A stretch of DNA of 64,000 bases from contig NZ_CP033922.1 of assembly GCF_003815715.1 (NCBI RefSeq), positions 558,001 through 622,000 on the forward strand, in the 5' to 3' direction. Of the stretch, positions 1-6,111 are shown piece by piece. Source of the DNA: Chryseobacterium sp. G0162. GTDB lineage: Bacteria > Bacteroidota > Bacteroidia > Flavobacteriales > Weeksellaceae. A model generated the notes under the pieces. The model was not told the DNA's origin. It searched no databases and saw only the letters and a program-made list of their open reading frames with translations. A program made the position numbers and the translations under genes. How positions within the stretch are numbered: the stretch's first letter is position 1; each line of letters starts with the position of its first letter.

Positions 1-702
1 TTCTTTAGTCAGACCATATCTTTTATGATAGTCAGAGGCTGTGAAACTCATGGCCGCATCATGTCTCTCATGTTGGATTCTTAATAACATCAGAACATCT
101 ACTTCAGCGATCAGTTCATCTACTGAAAGATAAGTTCCGTTGATTATTGCTCCTTCATCAAACCACTGCTCAGGTCCTGAAAAATAAACTTTAGCTCCTA
201 ATCTTCTTAACGCTTCAGCATTTGAGTTGGCAACACGGCTGTGTTTTACATCTCCTACAATTCCTACTTTTAGTCCTTCAAACTTTCCGAATTCCTGATA
301 GATGGTCATCAGATCCAGCATACATTGTGAAGGATGGTTTCCTGTTCCATCTCCTCCATTGATTACAGGGATCTTAATATTTTTCAGTTCTTCAAAGTAT
401 CTGTCTTTCTTATCTCGGATCACTACAAGATTTACTCCAAGGCTTTCAATGGTCTTTACTGTATCATAAAGACTCTCACCTTTATTTACAGAACTGTGTG
501 AAGCATCAAAAGGAACAACCTGTAATCCTAATTTTCTTTCTGCAATATCAAAGCTTGTCTTTGTTCTTGTGCTGTCTTCGAAGAAAAGATTGGAACAAAA
601 AACTTCGCCTTCAATTTTAGCAGTTTTTCCATTTCTGAAAGCTAGTGCTTCTGTCAGTATACTGTTGATTTTCTCGGTACTTAGTTCTGTAATCGTAAAC
701 AT
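1..702 (-). CDS. pyrB: Aspartate carbamoyltransferase, catalytic chain (3' part cut by window edge)
   Basis: Condenses carbamoyl phosphate with aspartate, the first committed step of pyrimidine synthesis, in the cytoplasm. The 234 codons present start at ATG 702 and run off the left edge in frame. The carbamoyl-phosphate loop STRTKTS is at residues 44-50, followed by an NHPSQ motif typical of the transcarbamylase core. Usual family length is about 305 residues, so roughly the last quarter is missing. An intrinsic terminator and a short upstream ORF lie within 120 nt of the start codon, which suggests regulation by transcription attenuation. An ornithine-type transcarbamylase is unlikely given the aspartate-type motifs and the promoter-proximal pyr-like leader. 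Confidence 0.93.
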   Translation of the reverse strand, partial: MFTITELSTEKINSILTEALAFRNGKTAKIEGEVFCSNLFFEDSTRTKTSFDIAERKLGLQVVPFDASHSSVNKGESLYDTVKTIESLGVNLVVIRDKKDRYFEELKNIKIPVINGGDGTGNHPSQCMLDLMTIYQEFGKFEGLKVGIVGDVKHSRVANSNAEALRRLGAKVYFSGPEQWFDEGAIINGTYLSVDELIAEVDVLMLLRIQHERHDAAMSFTASDYHKRYGLTKE

Positions 703-721
703 AATCTTAATTTTTAAGCAT

Positions 722-749
722 AAAAAAAGCGAAGACAACAATCTTCGCT
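722..749 (-). terminator. Intrinsic terminator in the pyrB leader (attenuator)
   Basis: On the minus strand an 8-bp perfect stem (AGCGAAGA / TCTTCGCT, plus-strand arms 742-749 and 728-735) encloses a 6-nt loop and is followed by a run of six T. It lies about 20 nt before the pyrB start and about 70 nt after the predicted transcription start. In this position it can only cut short pyrB transcription, so it acts as an attenuator, not as the end of an upstream gene. A small CTTAA/TTAAG hairpin (706-718) follows it, just before the pyrB ATG. Confidence 0.8.
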
Positions 750-819
750 AATAACAATAAATATCGTAAAGGGCGCTTTCGCCCGGTAAATCTAATGATA
801 TAAATGCTTTTTTATTCAT
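748..819 (-). CDS. Candidate 23-residue leader peptide of pyrB (pyrL-like)
   Basis: An ATG at 819 opens 23 codons ending in TAG at 750-748. The start MNKKAFISLDLPGESALY is followed by DIYCY. The ATG lies 6 nt after the end of a TAnnTTTG box, so the transcript would be nearly leaderless. The stop codon overlaps the first two bases of the terminator stem at 749, so a ribosome reaching the stop would cover the stem. The last codons lie in a U-rich stretch. This matches the E. coli pyrBI leader in layout, not in sequence. Translation is inferred. A chance ORF is possible but the positional fit is close. Confidence 0.62.
   Translation of the reverse strand: MNKKAFISLDLPGESALYDIYCY
771..784 (-). 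promoter_or_regulatory. Candidate RNA polymerase pause hairpin in the pyrB leader
   Basis: A GC-rich 5-bp stem GGGCG/CGCCC with an AAAG loop sits inside the leader-peptide reading frame, in otherwise AT-rich DNA. It is followed by about 26 nt of which half are T, up to the terminator stem. In the E. coli pyrBI leader a pause hairpin followed by a U-rich tract makes elongation sensitive to UTP. The same role is inferred here. Confidence 0.55.
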
Positions 820-825
820 TAGGTG

Positions 826-858
826 CAAAGATACAACAATTTTATGAACCTACAAAAA
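826..858 (-). promoter_or_regulatory. Promoter of the pyrB leader (Bacteroidota type)
   Basis: On the minus strand TTTTTG (858-853), 19 nt, then TATCTTTG (833-826). This is an exact match to the Bacteroidota -7 consensus TAnnTTTG with a good -33 box and spacing. The expected start of transcription is about 819-822, at or just before the leader-peptide ATG. Confidence 0.78.
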
Positions 859-941
859 TTAAGTTTAAAATAAATTAAAAACTTCAGTACTTCTTATTCT
901 CATTTAAAATTAATATTTTTGTTACAACACAACATTATTCT

Positions 942-1403
942 ATGGATTTAAAAGACAAAATGATTCTCAGCATTATACAGGAAGACTCTACTTTATCGGT
1001 GAAAGAAATTTCAGAAAAGATAGGTCTTACCTTTACTCCGACGTATGAAAGAATCAAACAATTGGAGAAGCAGGGGATCATTCAAAAGTATGTAGGGCTT
1101 TTAAACCGTGAAAAGCTGGGCTTGAATATTGTAGTCTACTGTAATGTACGTCTTAAAGAGCAATCCAAGAAGGTATTGGAAACCTTTGAGAAGCATATCG
1201 GAAAATATGATGAAGTACAGGAAATCATCAGTCTTTCCGGAGAGTATGACTATATGCTGAAAATTATTGCCAAAGACATCAACTCTTATAATGAGTTTGC
1301 AGTCAATGTGATTTCAAACGTTCCTAATATCGGACAGTACCACAGCTCCATCGTACTTCATGAGGTGAAAAAATCTACTAAATTCAAAATTGAACTTGAA
1401 TAA
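942..1403 (+). CDS. Lrp/AsnC family transcriptional regulator
   Basis: A 153-residue protein of normal Lrp/AsnC length. Residues 1-60 form the winged helix-turn-helix (LKDKMILSIIQEDSTLSVKE, then EKIGLTFTPTYERIKQLEKQ). Residues 65-150 form the RAM/AsnC effector domain, with the family's SGEYDYMLKI segment. It is divergent from pyrB and sits beside the arginine cluster, so amino-acid-responsive control of a neighbouring pathway is possible, though not shown. The start is set by ATG 942. A TATTTTTG at 914-921 could be its -7 box, but no good -33 box is visible. The ligand cannot be told from sequence. Confidence 0.9.
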   Translation: MDLKDKMILSIIQEDSTLSVKEISEKIGLTFTPTYERIKQLEKQGIIQKYVGLLNREKLGLNIVVYCNVRLKEQSKKVLETFEKHIGKYDEVQEIISLSGEYDYMLKIIAKDINSYNEFAVNVISNVPNIGQYHSSIVLHEVKKSTKFKIELE

Positions 1404-1609
1404 TTCTTTTACTATTAAGCCTTAAGAAGCTTTATGTGATTTCATCACAATCATCAATTTCAAAGATCAAAATAAAATCCAACCATTAAGACAGCTTAAG
1501 CAATTAAGATTTAAGGATTTCACAACGATAAAACATAAGGCGATTCTAAAGTAATTTTTAGATTTTTTATGTCAACTCAAGCCTTTATATATCTTAATGG
1601 TTCAGATTT

Positions 1610-2914
1610 TTAACCTAATAATTTATTCTTCAGTTTATTAAACTGGTATTCTATTTTATCCAGGCATAGATTTCCTATACTTCCCTGGTGAGTATGATCT
1701 AAACTTCCCGGTTCGAATTCAAACTCATTGTTTTCAATCTCCTGTCCCACTTTTACATAAGCATCACGGAAAGAACTTCCGCTTTTCACTTCTTCATTAA
1801 TCTTCTCTACACTGAACAGGTATTTATATTTTTCGTCCTCGAGAATTCCGTCTTTTACCTGAATATTGGGCAAGGTATAGCTTAAGATCTCAAGACATTC
1901 CTTTAATGAATCAATAGCCGGGAATAAAATTTCCTTAGTCAACTGTACATCTCTGTGGTATCCTGATGGCAGATTGTTTGTCAACAGGATCAATTCATTA
2001 GGCAACGCCTGAATTCTGTTGCATCGTGCACGAACCAATTCGAAAATATCCGGATTCTTTTTATGTGGCATAATGCTGCTTCCTGTTGTAAATTCTTTTG
2101 GAAAGCTGATAAAATCAAAGTTCTGATTCAGATACAGGCATACATCATATGCAAATTTCCCTAAAGTTCCTGCTAAAGTTGCCATTGCCATTGCCAGCAT
2201 CTTCTCAGATTTTCCACGAGTCATCTGTGCATAGACTGAATTATAGTTCATGGACTGAAACCCCAGATTATAAGTAGTACTTTCACGGTTGATCGGGAAA
2301 GATGAACCATAACCTGCTGCTGAACCCAGCGGATTTTTATTAATGATATTTTTTGTTGAGAACAACATTTCAACATCATCCAAAAGGGCTTCTGCATATG
2401 CTCCAAACCACAATCCGAAGGATGAAGGCATCGCAATCTGCAAATGCGTATACCCGGGAAGCAGCACATTTTTATGCTGATTTGCCAATTGAATCAAAAC
2501 CTGGAAAAATTCATCGGTCAATGCGGTAATTTCACGGATTTCATCTAGTAAATATAATTTTATATCTAATAAAACCTGATCATTTCTTGATCTTGCCGTG
2601 TGAATTTTCTTTCCCGTATCTCCTAATTTTGTAATCAGGATTGCTTCTACCTGAGAATGGATATCCTCAGCTTCTTTATCAATTTCAAAATTGCCATTTT
2701 CAATTTGCTGTAAAATATCATTTAATACTACCAGCATCTGCTCGGATTCTTCATGAGAAATAATTCCGGTTTCTGCAAGCATTATACAATGTGCCATAGA
2801 ACCTTTAACATCATATTTGGCTAAACGTTCATCAAAGTCAAGGTCTTTTCCTACGGTAAAGTTATTGACTAATATATTGGTGGCCAGGTCATCCTTTTGC
2901 CATATTTTTTTCAT
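1610..2914 (-). CDS. argH: Argininosuccinate lyase
   Basis: Splits argininosuccinate into arginine and fumarate, the last step of arginine synthesis. The superfamily signature GSSIMPHKKNP is at residues 278-288. TARSRNDQ (about 107-113) and the catalytic-type THLQ segment (156-159) are also present. Start ATG 2914 (MKKIWQKDD) gives 434 residues. An upstream in-frame start at 2947 would add 11 residues without family character. It is last in the minus-strand arg cluster and separated from argE by about 315 nt, so it may have its own promoter or depend on read-through. Confidence 0.95.
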   Translation of the reverse strand: MKKIWQKDDLATNILVNNFTVGKDLDFDERLAKYDVKGSMAHCIMLAETGIISHEESEQMLVVLNDILQQIENGNFEIDKEAEDIHSQVEAILITKLGDTGKKIHTARSRNDQVLLDIKLYLLDEIREITALTDEFFQVLIQLANQHKNVLLPGYTHLQIAMPSSFGLWFGAYAEALLDDVEMLFSTKNIINKNPLGSAAGYGSSFPINRESTTYNLGFQSMNYNSVYAQMTRGKSEKMLAMAMATLAGTLGKFAYDVCLYLNQNFDFISFPKEFTTGSSIMPHKKNPDIFELVRARCNRIQALPNELILLTNNLPSGYHRDVQLTKEILFPAIDSLKECLEILSYTLPNIQVKDGILEDEKYKYLFSVEKINEEVKSGSSFRDAYVKVGQEIENNEFEFEPGSLDHTHQGSIGNLCLDKIEYQFNKLKNKLLG

Positions 2915-3229
2915 AAGTATGATTGATTTTTCTAAGACTGCTATCATATATTGATTGCGTAACAGCCCGATTTAAAATATTTGATTGATTTTGACAAGCC
3001 CAGCAAGACTATCCTTATTATTATTAACTATAAAAAAACATTTCCTTAATATATAAAGTCACTTCTTAATGGTATCGTTTGCATAAATCCTTATTAAAAT
3101 GTAAACTTTATTGCCTGCTGAGCATTAGTCAAAATATATGTTAAGCTGGAAGCCTGAAGCTAGAGGCTGGAAGTTAATAACCAACGATAACAACTTCCAT
3201 TCTTCCATCTTCCTATTCCCATCTCTTCT
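2915..3229. other. Intergenic gap between argE and argH with hairpin-forming sequence
   Basis: No gene was found. The segment is AT-rich. At 3145-3198 there are imperfect GGAAG/CTTCC repeats, including an inverted pair GGAAGTT (3169-3175) and AACTTCC (3192-3198) that can form a hairpin just after the argE stop on the transcribed strand. This may end or process the upstream message. No Bacteroidota-type promoter for argH was recognised. Confidence 0.45.
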
Positions 3230-4312
3230 TTATAACACTTTTTCCAAAATCTGGATGTAAATATCAATACCTTCTTCGATTTCATTGATATAGATAAATT
3301 CATCCGCTGTATGCGAGCGCCTACTGTCTCCAGGTCCTAATTTCACAGATGTACACGGGATAATCGCCTGATCTGAAGACGTTGGTGAACCATAGGTTGT
3401 CCTTCCTATTTCCAGTCCGGCTTTAACAAACGGGTGATCCATCTCTATTTTTGAAGAATTCAACCTGAAAGACCTTGCCGTAAGTGCTGATTTCATCTGG
3501 GACTGGATCATTTCAAAGGCTTCCTTATTGGAATATTCATCCGTTACCCTTACATCCAGTGTGAAATGACAGGACTCCGGTACTACATTATGCTGTACTC
3601 CGGCATGAATTCCGGACAGGGTTACTTTTACTTCGCCCAGATAGTCTGAAACCTTCGGAAATTTAAAGTTTAATATTCCCTGAAGATCCGCCATACATTT
3701 GATAATGGAATTATCATCATTAGGATGAGCAGCATGAGAAGGAGTTCCTTTCATTTCTCCGTCAATCACCAACAGTCCCTTTTCAGCTATTGCCAGATTC
3801 ATCTGCGTGGGTTCTCCTACAATGGCAAGCTCTATATTTGGCAACTGTGGAAACAGAGCCTCGATTCCGTCAAAACCTGAAATCTCCTCCTCTGCTGTCA
3901 ACGCAATCACTAAATTATATTCTAAATCTTCTTTCTCATAAAAATGTAAAAAAACCTGCGCCATAGAAACCAGAGAAGCTCCGGCATCATTACTGCCCAA
4001 CCCGAAAAGTTTACCGTCTTTTTCAACCGGTACAAATGGATCAAGTGTGTAAGCTTTATTAGGTTTTACCGTATCATGATGTGTATTCAATAAAACTGAA
4101 GGCTTAAATACATCAAAGTTTTTATTGACCGCCCAAATATTATTTTTAAAACGCTTCGTCGGAATTTGATGCTTTTTAAAAAAGTTTTCAATCTCTACCG
4201 ACGTATTGAATTCATCTTTACTGAACGAAGGAATTTCAATCAGCTTTTTAAGCAGCTCAACAGCATTATTCAATAATTCTTCTTTATTATAAACAGATTT
4301 CAGTTCCTGCAT
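3230..4312 (-). CDS. argE: M20 family deacylase of the arginine pathway (ArgE-like, N-acyl-citrulline deacylase)
   Basis: A 360-residue metallopeptidase-fold amidohydrolase. Metal-binding and catalytic elements are visible: NTHHD (76-80), the Asp of SNDAG (109), the EEE of the AEEE segment (141-143), and a late His in SHTADEF. In Bacteroidota the transcarbamylase acts on acylated ornithine, so this enzyme is expected to remove the acyl group from N-acyl-citrulline before argG acts. That substrate is inferred from the neighbours. The start ATG 4312 lies inside argB, giving a 26-nt overlap and suggesting translational coupling. A DapE or other M20 role is less likely in this operon. Confidence 0.85.
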   Translation of the reverse strand: MQELKSVYNKEELLNNAVELLKKLIEIPSFSKDEFNTSVEIENFFKKHQIPTKRFKNNIWAVNKNFDVFKPSVLLNTHHDTVKPNKAYTLDPFVPVEKDGKLFGLGSNDAGASLVSMAQVFLHFYEKEDLEYNLVIALTAEEEISGFDGIEALFPQLPNIELAIVGEPTQMNLAIAEKGLLVIDGEMKGTPSHAAHPNDDNSIIKCMADLQGILNFKFPKVSDYLGEVKVTLSGIHAGVQHNVVPESCHFTLDVRVTDEYSNKEAFEMIQSQMKSALTARSFRLNSSKIEMDHPFVKAGLEIGRTTYGSPTSSDQAIIPCTSVKLGPGDSRRSHTADEFIYINEIEEGIDIYIQILEKVL

Positions 4313-5081
4313 GATGATTCTCTATATGGTTTTTTAATTCTGTTTCTTTAATCAGAAACACCTTATTTACATTATTCTTTATAGCTCCAAGAGCATTCTC
4401 TAATTTGGGTAAAATCCCTTTGTGAAGCTTTCCTTCTTCCTTCAATGCTGTAAAATCATCTTCGGAAATACTTTTGATAAGAGATTCGGGATCATCTACA
4501 TTTTCCAGGACTCCATTTTTATCAAAACAATACAGGAGTTCTACTTCATATTTCTCAGACAGAGCCTGCGCAATTACAGAGGCAATAGTATCTGCATTGG
4601 TATTAAAAAGGTTTCCTTTTCTATCATGCGTGATAGCAGAAAATACAGGAATAAGATCCAGTTTAATCAATTTTGAAACAAGCTTTTTATTCACACTTTT
4701 CTTATTGACATCTCCTACAAATCCAAAATCTATTTCCGAATGCTCTCTTTTTTTTGCTTTAATCAGATTTCCATCTGCCCCGGAAAACCCAATAGCATTG
4801 CATTTTTTCTGCTGTAGTTTTTCAACAATATTTTTATTGATTCCACCAGCATACACCATCGTTACAATATCCAATGTATCTTTATCCGTAATCCTCCTTC
4901 CGTTAATCATCTTCTGCTCTATGCCTAGCTTATCAGCCAATGTTGTGGCTAACTTACCTCCGCCATGCACAAGGATCTTCTTTTCTTTAATTTCGGAAAA
5001 CTGATCTAAAAACTGATCCAGTAATCGTTCATCATCAATGAGCGCTCCGCCTATTTTTATGATGTATATTTTCTGTTTCAT
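4287..5081 (-). CDS. argB: N-acylglutamate kinase (acetyl/succinyl-glutamate kinase)
   Basis: Amino-acid kinase family, 264 residues, near the usual length. Phosphorylates the gamma-carboxyl of N-acylglutamate in the second step of arginine synthesis. Visible features are Lys9 in IKIGG, the HGGGK nucleotide/substrate loop at 39-43, GRRITD at 61-66, and an AD-type segment NTNADTIASVIA. It overlaps argE by 26 nt and follows argF' after 76 nt that hold a double-hairpin element. The acyl group is likely succinyl if the transcarbamylase reading is right, because all enzymes between argA and argE share the same blocking group. Confidence 0.92.
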   Translation of the reverse strand: MKQKIYIIKIGGALIDDERLLDQFLDQFSEIKEKKILVHGGGKLATTLADKLGIEQKMINGRRITDKDTLDIVTMVYAGGINKNIVEKLQQKKCNAIGFSGADGNLIKAKKREHSEIDFGFVGDVNKKSVNKKLVSKLIKLDLIPVFSAITHDRKGNLFNTNADTIASVIAQALSEKYEVELLYCFDKNGVLENVDDPESLIKSISEDDFTALKEEGKLHKGILPKLENALGAIKNNVNKVFLIKETELKNHIENHHAGTEICL

Positions 5082-5102
5082 TTTTATTTTACATTTAGAA
5101 TT

Positions 5103-5148
5103 GATAGGAATCTATTCCTATCTTGGGTTAAATCGTCCCTTTGGGACT
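5103..5148 (-). repeat. Double-hairpin element, copy 1 (argF'-argB junction)
   Basis: Two stems joined by a conserved linker. GATAGGAA/TTCCTATC (5103-5110 and 5115-5122) and GTCCC/GGGAC (5135-5139 and 5143-5147) flank TTGGGTTAAATC. A second copy at 8349-8393 has the same layout and linker, but different stem bases that still pair. It sits just after the argF' stop and ends about 20 nt before the argB ATG. A role as a mobile REP-like unit or an mRNA processing or stability element is inferred. Confidence 0.7.
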
Positions 5149-5157
5149 CATTGGATG

Positions 5158-6111
5158 TTATTTTATATTGTCTAGAATTTCGCTGAAGACTGCCTGTGCT
5201 GAGAAAATACGGTTCTTTGCCTGTTGGTAGATGATTGAATTTTCTCCGTCCATTACTTCATCGCTTAATTCTACATTACGGCGAACCGGAAGGCAGTGCA
5301 TTACTTTTGCCTGGTTGGTATTCGCCAGTTTTTCGTTAGTCAGCATCCAATCTTCCTTTACTTCAGGCATTGCTGCATAATCATCAAACGAAGACCAGTT
5401 TTTCACATAGATAAAATCTGCATCTTTCAAGGCTTCCTCCTGATTATGAATCACTTTTGTATCTTTTATAAAAGCCGGATCCAAATCATACCCTTCAGGA
5501 TTAGTGATTACTAATTCAACATCCATTTCCTGCATCCATTCTGCAAAGGAATTTCCTACAGCATGAGCAATCGGTTTGATATGCGGTGCCCAGGTTAATA
5601 CCACTTTCGGTTTACGGTCTTCTTTCCAGTTTTCTGTAATCGTAATACAGTCTGCCAGACTTTGCAAAGGATGACGCGTTGCTGATTCTAAAGAGATAAC
5701 AGGAACTTTTGCATGTTGTTCAAACTGACTCAGAATGCTTTCATTTACATCATCTTCCTTACTTTTCATTCCAGCAAAACAACGAACAGCGATGATATCA
5801 CAATATTGATTTAAAACTTCAATAGCGTCTTTGATATGCTCCACTGTATCTCCGTTCATCACCGCACCATCTGCAAACTCAAGATTCCATGCTTCCTGCG
5901 CTGCGTTTAAAGTCAATACATTTAGACCAAGGTTTTGTGCTGCAATCTGACTGCTTAAACGGGTTCTTAAGCTTGAGTTTAAGAATACAAGTCCTATAGT
6001 TTTCCCCTTTCCTTTTTCTGTTTCTGAAAGTGGGTTCGCTTTAATTTCTAAAGCTTTTTTTATGATTTCCTGTAAGTTTTCTACATCACTTACAGCAGTG
6101 AATTTTTTCAT
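5158..6111 (-). CDS. argF': N-succinylornithine carbamoyltransferase (ArgF')
   Basis: Carbamoylates acylated ornithine to acylated citrulline. The 317-residue protein has the carbamoyl-phosphate motif SSLRTR (46-51), the ATRHPLQS segment and the late HCLPVRR motif. It closely resembles the Bacteroides fragilis SOTCase, as remembered, in TWAPH, NSFAEWM and the C-terminal region. The position that sets succinyl versus acetyl specificity is Pro90 in B. fragilis SOTCase and Glu92 in Xanthomonas AOTCase. Here it is Val90, in GDTVEH. Val at that site has been reported to favour the succinyl substrate. It sits between argD and argB in the operon. A plain ornithine enzyme is unlikely. Confidence 0.9.
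   Translation of the reverse strand: MKKFTAVSDVENLQEIIKKALEIKANPLSETEKGKGKTIGLVFLNSSLRTRLSSQIAAQNLGLNVLTLNAAQEAWNLEFADGAVMNGDTVEHIKDAIEVLNQYCDIIAVRCFAGMKSKEDDVNESILSQFEQHAKVPVISLESATRHPLQSLADCITITENWKEDRKPKVVLTWAPHIKPIAHAVGNSFAEWMQEMDVELVITNPEGYDLDPAFIKDTKVIHNQEEALKDADFIYVKNWSSFDDYAAMPEVKEDWMLTNEKLANTNQAKVMHCLPVRRNVELSDEVMDGENSIIYQQAKNRIFSAQAVFSEILDNIK

Follow-up and report, generated by a model that had tools for sequence, protein, structure and literature searches.

A probable ribosome-coupled attenuator of pyrL-like layout upstream of pyrB in Chryseobacterium sp. G0162 and its family

Gene content and layout of the pyrB leader

The DNA analysed (the window) is a stretch of 64,000 nt from the genome of Chryseobacterium sp. 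G0162. The leader described here lies between pyrB, which runs on beyond the window, and a divergent gene for an Lrp-like regulator (942-1403, below the curated cut-off). In the genome the operon has the order pyrB, carA, a four-helix-bundle ORF and carB, the last being recognised by its length and sequence, and pyrI is not present in it. The four-helix-bundle gene between carA and carB belongs to TIGR02436 (L005 6255-6608, minus strand).

Arginine genes are found upstream of the pyr operon on the same (minus) strand (window 1610-6084), with the divergent Lrp-like gene in between. They comprise argH (1610-2947, above cut-off), an ArgE/DapE-like deacylase (3230-4312, below cut-off) and an N-acetylornithine carbamoyltransferase (5170-6084, 288.4 bits for a cut-off of 288), all on the minus strand. 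Carbamoyl phosphate feeds both the arginine and the pyrimidine pathways. A sub-threshold match to the Acido-Lenti-1 RNA on the plus strand of this stretch (5103-5148; 25.9 bits against a gathering score of 37) is probably due to chance.

Table 1. Features of the pyrB leader region in window coordinates, listed in the order in which the minus strand is read
Feature	Position	Strand	Basis or remarks
Possible -33 element TTTTTG	853..858	minus	Sequence; a similar TTTTG is kept in most alignment rows
-7 box TATCTTTG	833..826	minus	Sequence; box-ATG distance of 5-7 nt elsewhere in the family
Start-codon helix, 5' arm UAAUGA, includes the leader AUG	816..821	minus	RNAalifold and cross-genus helix count
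Leader ORF MNKKAFISLDLPGESALYDIYCY	748..819	minus	23 codons and TAG; ATG 819..817, TAG 750..748
Anti-start arm UCAUUA, codons TCA TTA of the leader ORF	793..798	minus	RNAalifold, cross-genus count, codon conservation
GC hairpin GGGCGAAAGCGCCC (GGGCG-AAAG-CGCCC) in the leader ORF, candidate pause hairpin	784..771	minus	Folding z
T-rich tract between GC hairpin and terminator, candidate UTP-sensitive stretch	770..750	minus	T content
Intrinsic terminator	722..749	minus	Arms AGCGAAGA (749..742) and TCTTCGCT (735..728), T-run 728..722
pyrB (aspartate carbamoyltransferase), 5' part	1..702	minus	ATG 702..700; runs on beyond the window

Read along the minus strand, the candidate -33 element (a motif name used in PMC6847099) lies 19 nt 5' of the -7 box, and six nt separate this box from the leader ATG. 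The GC hairpin is followed by UUUACGAUAUUUAUUGUUAUU. The terminator then reads AGCGAAGA-ttgttg-TCTTCGCT, followed by the T-run, 19 bases and the pyrB ATG. Its stem begins 70 bases past the start of the leader ATG, and the last two bases of the leader stop codon TAG are the first two of the stem. A first-pass annotation had described the same series of promoter, 6-nt gap, 23-codon ORF, hairpin, T tract and terminator, with the stop overlapping the first two stem bases. We recovered this layout on the minus strand at coordinates that agree.

Flavobacterial transcripts are reported to start 4-5 nt past the -7 box (PMC6847099, PMC9723704), which PMC9723704 places at -12 to -5. Because six bases lie between box and ATG, this rule predicts a transcript start at 821 or 820 and thus a 5' UTR of 1-2 nt. 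Leaderless RNAs are a minority in flavobacteria (5.5% in F. psychrophilum), and leaders of more than 10 nt are found in 87% of predicted F. johnsoniae transcripts (PMC6847099 / PMC9723704). At pyrB loci outside the genus but within the family, the gap between box and ATG was 5-7 nt in 40 of 40 cases, 34 of them having exactly six nt. The start-site rule and this constant gap support, as a prediction, the near-leaderless start that had been proposed.

Terminator stems carry several standard pair types at positions 4, 5, 6 and 8 (22 distinct stems). The distance from the end of the T-run to the pyrB start has a median of 19 nt over 140 loci, some genomes being counted twice. A TAnnTTTG sequence occurs between T-run and gene at only one of these loci (L126), four bases from the ATG. 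Given this gap and the lack of a -7 box within it, pyrB should be reached by reading through the terminator.

Conservation of the leader geometry and absence of PyrR

Leader DNA was matched in 98 of 98 genomes of the genus, that of G0162 included. In an alignment of 70 Chryseobacterium loci the leader frame is kept, even across a 3-base insertion in L074; frame-shifting deletions near the leader stop occur in L039 and L071, and L039 has a long variant peptide. For the divergence analysis, leaders were found with an expression that caught 183 of 187 loci and, because it fixes some bases, the leader conservation seen there is partly built in; loci overlap between collections, and 35 distinct leaders were counted. 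Synonymous divergence was 0.062 and non-synonymous divergence 0.103 in the leader (pN/pS 1.65), as compared with 0.351 and 0.115 respectively in the first 23 codons of pyrB. The low synonymous divergence of the leader relative to pyrB therefore indicates a constraint on nucleotides more than on the peptide. Leader peptides of the same genus are near-identical, the 183 leader loci giving 27 distinct peptides. Across genera the peptides vary; this variation and the divergence values give no sign of selection on the peptide itself.

A PyrB relative was found in 163 of the 197 family genomes (Weeksellaceae), representing 26 of 33 genera. The 34 genomes with no PyrB match include 30 of the 187 better genomes, and the apparent pyrB losses concern seven of the 33 genera as well as some members of others. 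For the cross-genus sample, 40 loci were picked by hand in 23 other genera, each genus contributing between one and ten, and eight further genomes were taken from g7, g17 and g30. The layout of box, 5-7 nt, ATG, ORF, terminator and pyrB is present in 25 of the 26 genera with a PyrB relative, namely the 23 sampled genera, g1 and, as read by eye, g30. Genus g17 deviates: its leader is different and longer, and a frame stays open through a different terminator in L252, L253, L254 and L255. An ATG start was sought for this terminator-crossing frame in the four loci and none was found. The PyrB protein of g17 is diverged (51-53% identity).

The position of the leader stop is usually kept across these genera. 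Measured from the first G/C of the stem, the end of the stop falls at -6 to +3 nt in 30 of the 40 loci, with 1.27 expected from shuffled ORFs, and the other two frames gave 0 and 2 such loci. At 38 of 40 loci (6.0 expected) the frame stays open until 6 nt or less from the stem, as it does at 1 and 12 loci for the other two frames; the frame +1 control is biased, since ATGA yields an immediate TGA. Counting a single locus for each genus puts the stop on the stem in 15 of 23 genera (0.75 expected) and leaves the frame open in 21 of 23 (3.4 expected). The ten exceptions to the stop rule comprise eight ORFs that, like E. coli pyrL, enter or cross the stem and two that end 9 and 16 nt short. Leader peptides differ between genera while this geometry stays; several carry, by eye, a loose LDDL...G..AD...IYFI pattern. 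The first-pass annotation had proposed alignment of the region as a check, and had named loss of the frame and a freely moving stop as findings that would speak against it. The short ORF proved to be conserved in frame in the 70-locus alignment, and in the 40-locus count its stop is usually held on the terminator stem.

Over 24 genera, T makes up 0.49 of the last 21 nt before the stem and 0.30 of the remaining ORF (p = 1e-5). The GC hairpin has a folding z of -2.7 in the window and a mean of -1.2 over 24 genera, in 13 of which it is below -1. The hairpin within the ORF noted by the first-pass annotation is present, but its statistical support across genera is modest. An outer helix around it (ATATC/GATAT), noticed by eye, was dropped.

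Two loci show peculiarities in this region. In L108, from a g4 genome, about 124 nt that include a stretch resembling an inserted repeat separate the attenuator from pyrB. In L109, the stretch around the pyrB start of a g5 genome, a match to the Flavo-1 RNA above its gathering score lies at 496-577.

Outside the family the same gene, and with it the same pathway step, is found in PyrR-controlled pyrR-pyrB operons of other Bacteroidota. At 44 of 44 such loci PyrR is encoded directly upstream of pyrB on the same strand. Sixteen of these loci come from the order and 28 from the class; they are the best-scoring PyrB matches of two draws, a non-random sample. In the order outside the family, 76 genomes have a clear PyrB, and 75 of them also have PyrR, as counted from hand-entered genome lists. 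In contrast, no PyrR gene was found in any of the 197 family genomes at E <= 1e-15. The same query detected PyrR in 76 of the 119 genomes of the order draw and in none of the 14 family members included there. In the G0162 genome the best PyrR match reached 32.6 bits for a cut-off of 138, which 6 of 14 control genomes exceeded. No Rfam match to a PyrR-binding RNA element was obtained in window 1-6000 at E <= 1, in line with the first-pass annotation, which had recognised no PyrR-binding loop. Control by PyrR was rejected, the gene being absent from G0162 and from the 197 family genomes while the positive controls found it. PyrB itself shows 51-80% identity in other genera of the family, among the matches listed, and roughly 36-46% in the order and class, among the full-length matches listed. 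Chryseobacterium and its family seem to have dropped PyrR and to use a tiny-ORF switch for the pyrimidine pathway instead.

A helix over the leader start codon

In a consensus fold of 60 distinct Chryseobacterium and g32 leaders (RNAalifold), UAAUGA, which contains the leader AUG, pairs with UCAUUA within the ORF. When each genus is represented by a single locus, 14 of 25 genera have a perfect helix that covers the AUG and is 5 bp or longer, as against 3.1 expected (p = 3e-7); the other 11 lack one. Among seven other anchor positions, six were near expectation and the overlapping -3 anchor gave 8 for 4.2 expected (p = 0.05). When the first 36 nt are folded, the best structure pairs the whole AUG in 14 of 25 genera (4.8 expected); the mean unpaired probability of the AUG is 0.37 compared with 0.62 in shuffles (p = 7e-4). 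The corresponding value at the start of pyrB itself is 0.55 (24 loci).

Position -2 is a pyrimidine (T or C) in 24 of 25 genera. A helix of 4 bp or longer is present in 17 genera; there the letters at -2 and opposite it are U-A in 5 genera, C-G in 7 and C-A in 1, and the remaining 4 have others. Leaving out these four, the 2x2 table for the remaining 13 genera (U-A 5, C-G 7, C-A 1, U-G 0) gives p = 0.005; the counts lean towards pairing because the best helix was chosen by length. The shuffle comparison is free of this bias, the same choice having been applied to the shuffles. The Leu codon of the arm is TTG with C at -2 in g7 and g30, and TTA with T at -2 in g1 and in those g26 rows that have an arm. 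In Chryseobacterium the anti-start codons hardly drift, TCA being kept in 35 of 35 and TTA in 34 of 35 distinct leaders, which the start-codon pairing would explain.

Comparison thus supports pairing of the start codon with an arm inside its own ORF. Both this helix and the absence of PyrR had been missed by the first-pass annotation. Where the AUG is paired, fold energies range from -1.7 to -7.8 kcal/mol; these folds are weak, so any effect of the helix is probably kinetic. It would probably confine the loading of ribosomes to the moments right after the onset of transcription.

Proposed mechanism, known systems and alternatives

The pyrBI operon of E. coli is controlled by an attenuator with the leader peptide pyrL. 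Its mechanism is described in PMC5021804 and PMC4824070. The Chryseobacterium leader shares with it a short ORF upstream of pyrB, a hairpin in this ORF, a T-rich stretch, and an intrinsic terminator just before pyrB that a ribosome can reach. The distance between the 3' end of the hairpin and the start of the ATG is 49 nt here and 50 nt in E. coli pyrL. Several features differ. In MG1655, pyrL crosses its terminator (stem at +89, stop at +132, pyrB ATG at +138), whereas the Chryseobacterium stop is on the stem. The E. coli leader has 44 codons, ends just before pyrB and carries GGAGG before its ATG; that of Chryseobacterium has 23 codons and a predicted 5' UTR of 1-2 nt. The Chryseobacterium operon also has no pyrI, and its leader has the start-codon helix. 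No local alignment between pyrL and the leader peptide was obtained at E <= 100, and the first-pass annotation had seen no sequence relation either. The further statement that a stop on the stem is how the E. coli system works was wrong, since MG1655 pyrL runs through its terminator. The pyrL-type reading as a whole finds support in part, through the predicted near-leaderless start, the conserved frame, the pyrL-like layout and the lack of PyrR; it does not hold as worded for the stop, which E. coli pyrL does not have on its stem. Because pyrL crosses its terminator, the leader is best described as a variant of that system. It is pyrL-like, with a stop on the stem, a peptide that does not align and a near-leaderless start.

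We consider it likely, from the layout and its conservation, that this leader is a ribosome-coupled attenuator of pyrB-carA-carB that senses pyrimidine supply through a race between polymerase and ribosome, as in pyrL. UTP is the probable signal: the leader has a T-rich tract, it precedes a pyrimidine operon, and E. coli offers a precedent. Transcription would start 1-2 nt before the leader AUG, and a ribosome loaded on this near-leaderless RNA would trail the polymerase across 23 codons. When UTP is ample, the polymerase would cross the T-rich tract and form the terminator ahead of the ribosome, and transcription would end. When UTP is scarce, the polymerase would be slow in the T-rich tract, perhaps aided by the GC hairpin; the ribosome, arriving at the stop codon on the stem base, would cover the 5' arm of the terminator and pyrB would be transcribed. 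Such a switch would take the place of PyrR in the family.

Findings in E. coli agree with this reading. There, termination fell from about 90% to less than 10% when the distance between a stop codon and the terminator downstream of it was shortened from 28 to 5 nt; a terminator within the first 100 nt of an ORF is active because the ribosome still lags behind, except where pausing lets it close the gap (PMC4824070). The leader fits both conditions: 70 bases separate the start of its ATG from that of the stem, and its stop codon falls on the stem. The pause at E. coli pyrL is reported to be neither stabilised by NusA nor rescued by compensatory stem mutants (PMC9291695). Because that pause is reported to be hairpin-independent (PMC9291695), we do not rest the mechanism on the GC hairpin. 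The start-codon helix counts against the attenuator model, since it should hinder the translation that the model needs. The ten loci that break the stop rule, the deviating genus g17, the modest hairpin support and the upstream pairing in 9 of 41 truncated leaders (see below) also weigh against it.

The main rival keeps the same coupled attenuator but lets it report translation capacity, that is the supply of ribosomes or of initiation, or the growth state, the T-rich tract being incidental. Coupling alone would explain the leader ORF and a stop placed on the stem, and the start-codon helix hints at a control of ribosome loading. The T-richness before the stem exceeds that of the rest of the ORF in the 24-genus comparison, however, and the element belongs to pyrB, a gene expected to respond to UTP, in a lineage that lacks PyrR. 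We regard this rival as unlikely. An attenuator of the trp/his type, in which ribosome stalling at regulatory codons under a shortage of charged tRNA would allow an antiterminator to form, was considered for Asp, a substrate of PyrB, because Asp is enriched 2.4-fold in the peptides over shuffles; Gly (2.5-fold) and Phe (1.8-fold) are enriched as well. Clues for leader-peptide attenuation have been described in the same phylum at amino-acid operons of F. psychrophilum (PMC9723704); the pyrB leader differs from these in having neither a run of regulatory codons nor a winning antiterminator. An antiterminator was sought by partition-function folding. With both arms present, the 5' arm of the terminator has the terminator's 3' arm as its partner (mean 0.94) and almost none upstream (0.002), so that no antiterminator wins. 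When the 3' arm is removed, upstream pairing of the 5' arm reaches at least 0.5 in 9 of 41 leaders, which would suit such a mechanism, but its mean is just 0.30. The peptides contain no run of a single codon and, by eye, Gly, Ala and Asp codons lie in or beside the hairpin, which may account for the enrichment. Asp sensing therefore received low weight, and we hold amino-acid attenuation to be quite improbable. Since the terminator wins with both arms present, the ribosome is the evident agent able to open it.

The conservation data bear on two further explanations. An RNA-binding protein or ligand might act on the leader RNA in the fashion of PyrR, the ORF being secondary. The nucleotide constraint (synonymous divergence of 0.062 as against 0.351 in pyrB) and the conserved 5' helix would fit, but the frame and stop geometry are held while the sequence changes across genera, and the leader has neither an Rfam match nor a PyrR to act on it. 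The silence of Rfam is weak evidence, as Rfam is also blank at E. coli pyrL. This explanation appears very unlikely to us. The leader ORF might, alternatively, encode a small functional protein with its own terminator and have no part in pyrB control, as the near-identity of the peptides within the genus could suggest. The pN/pS of 1.65, the variation of the peptides across genera, the lack of space for a second promoter before pyrB and the positioning of the stop on the stem all argue against it, and we give it hardly any credence.

Start-site switching at E. coli pyrC and pyrD provides a precedent for the helix. There, the 5' end of the RNA folds into a hairpin that prevents translation from starting and may hinge on +1 being a pyrimidine. 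The Chryseobacterium leader shares the 5'-end hairpin that would block initiation, perhaps again in dependence on the +1 pyrimidine; here it would act on the leader ORF, ahead of the attenuator, and start-site switching is a possibility. A tentative extension of the attenuator reading, which we find possible though doubtful, is a two-stage pyrimidine sensor on one short RNA, in which the start-codon helix would gate ribosome loading before the ribosome-polymerase race. At the first stage the 5' end would fold so that the leader AUG pairs with the anti-start arm in its own ORF, the outer pair, U-A or C-G depending on the genus, including the predicted +1 pyrimidine. Loading would then be set by the choice of start site (the pyrimidine or the next A) or by slow transcription before the arm. 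At the second stage a loaded ribosome would race the polymerase through the T-rich tract to the stop on the terminator. If true, such a sensor would join pyrC/pyrD-like start control to pyrL-like attenuation, with no protein sensor, and would have replaced PyrR in the whole family.

Bacteroidota mRNAs naturally lack Shine-Dalgarno sequences, and the phylum has a divergent sigma factor (PMC6847099). The leader would be a UTP-type leader-peptide attenuator in this phylum, and would plainly illustrate how a ribosome-polymerase race can take over from a regulator, PyrR. In the literature covered, which leaves out most subscription journals so that an earlier report is possible, we found no report of leader-peptide attenuation at pyrB in Bacteroidetes, Flavobacterium or Chryseobacterium; pyrB is absent from the main text of PMC9723704, PMC7366714 and PMC4833913.

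A narrow search of the G0162 genome for a second switch, with a pattern combining T-run and near-leaderless ATG, revealed none. It returned 20 matches, as compared with 26 in a reversed control. A match in L269 with a seeming hairpin at the run proved to be the end of an unrelated reading frame, and the remaining 17 were judged from the first 80 bases of each. Two overlapping matches are the pyrB leader itself. For annotation, a -7 box followed by 5-7 nt, an ATG and a stop on a terminator stem could serve as a search rule.
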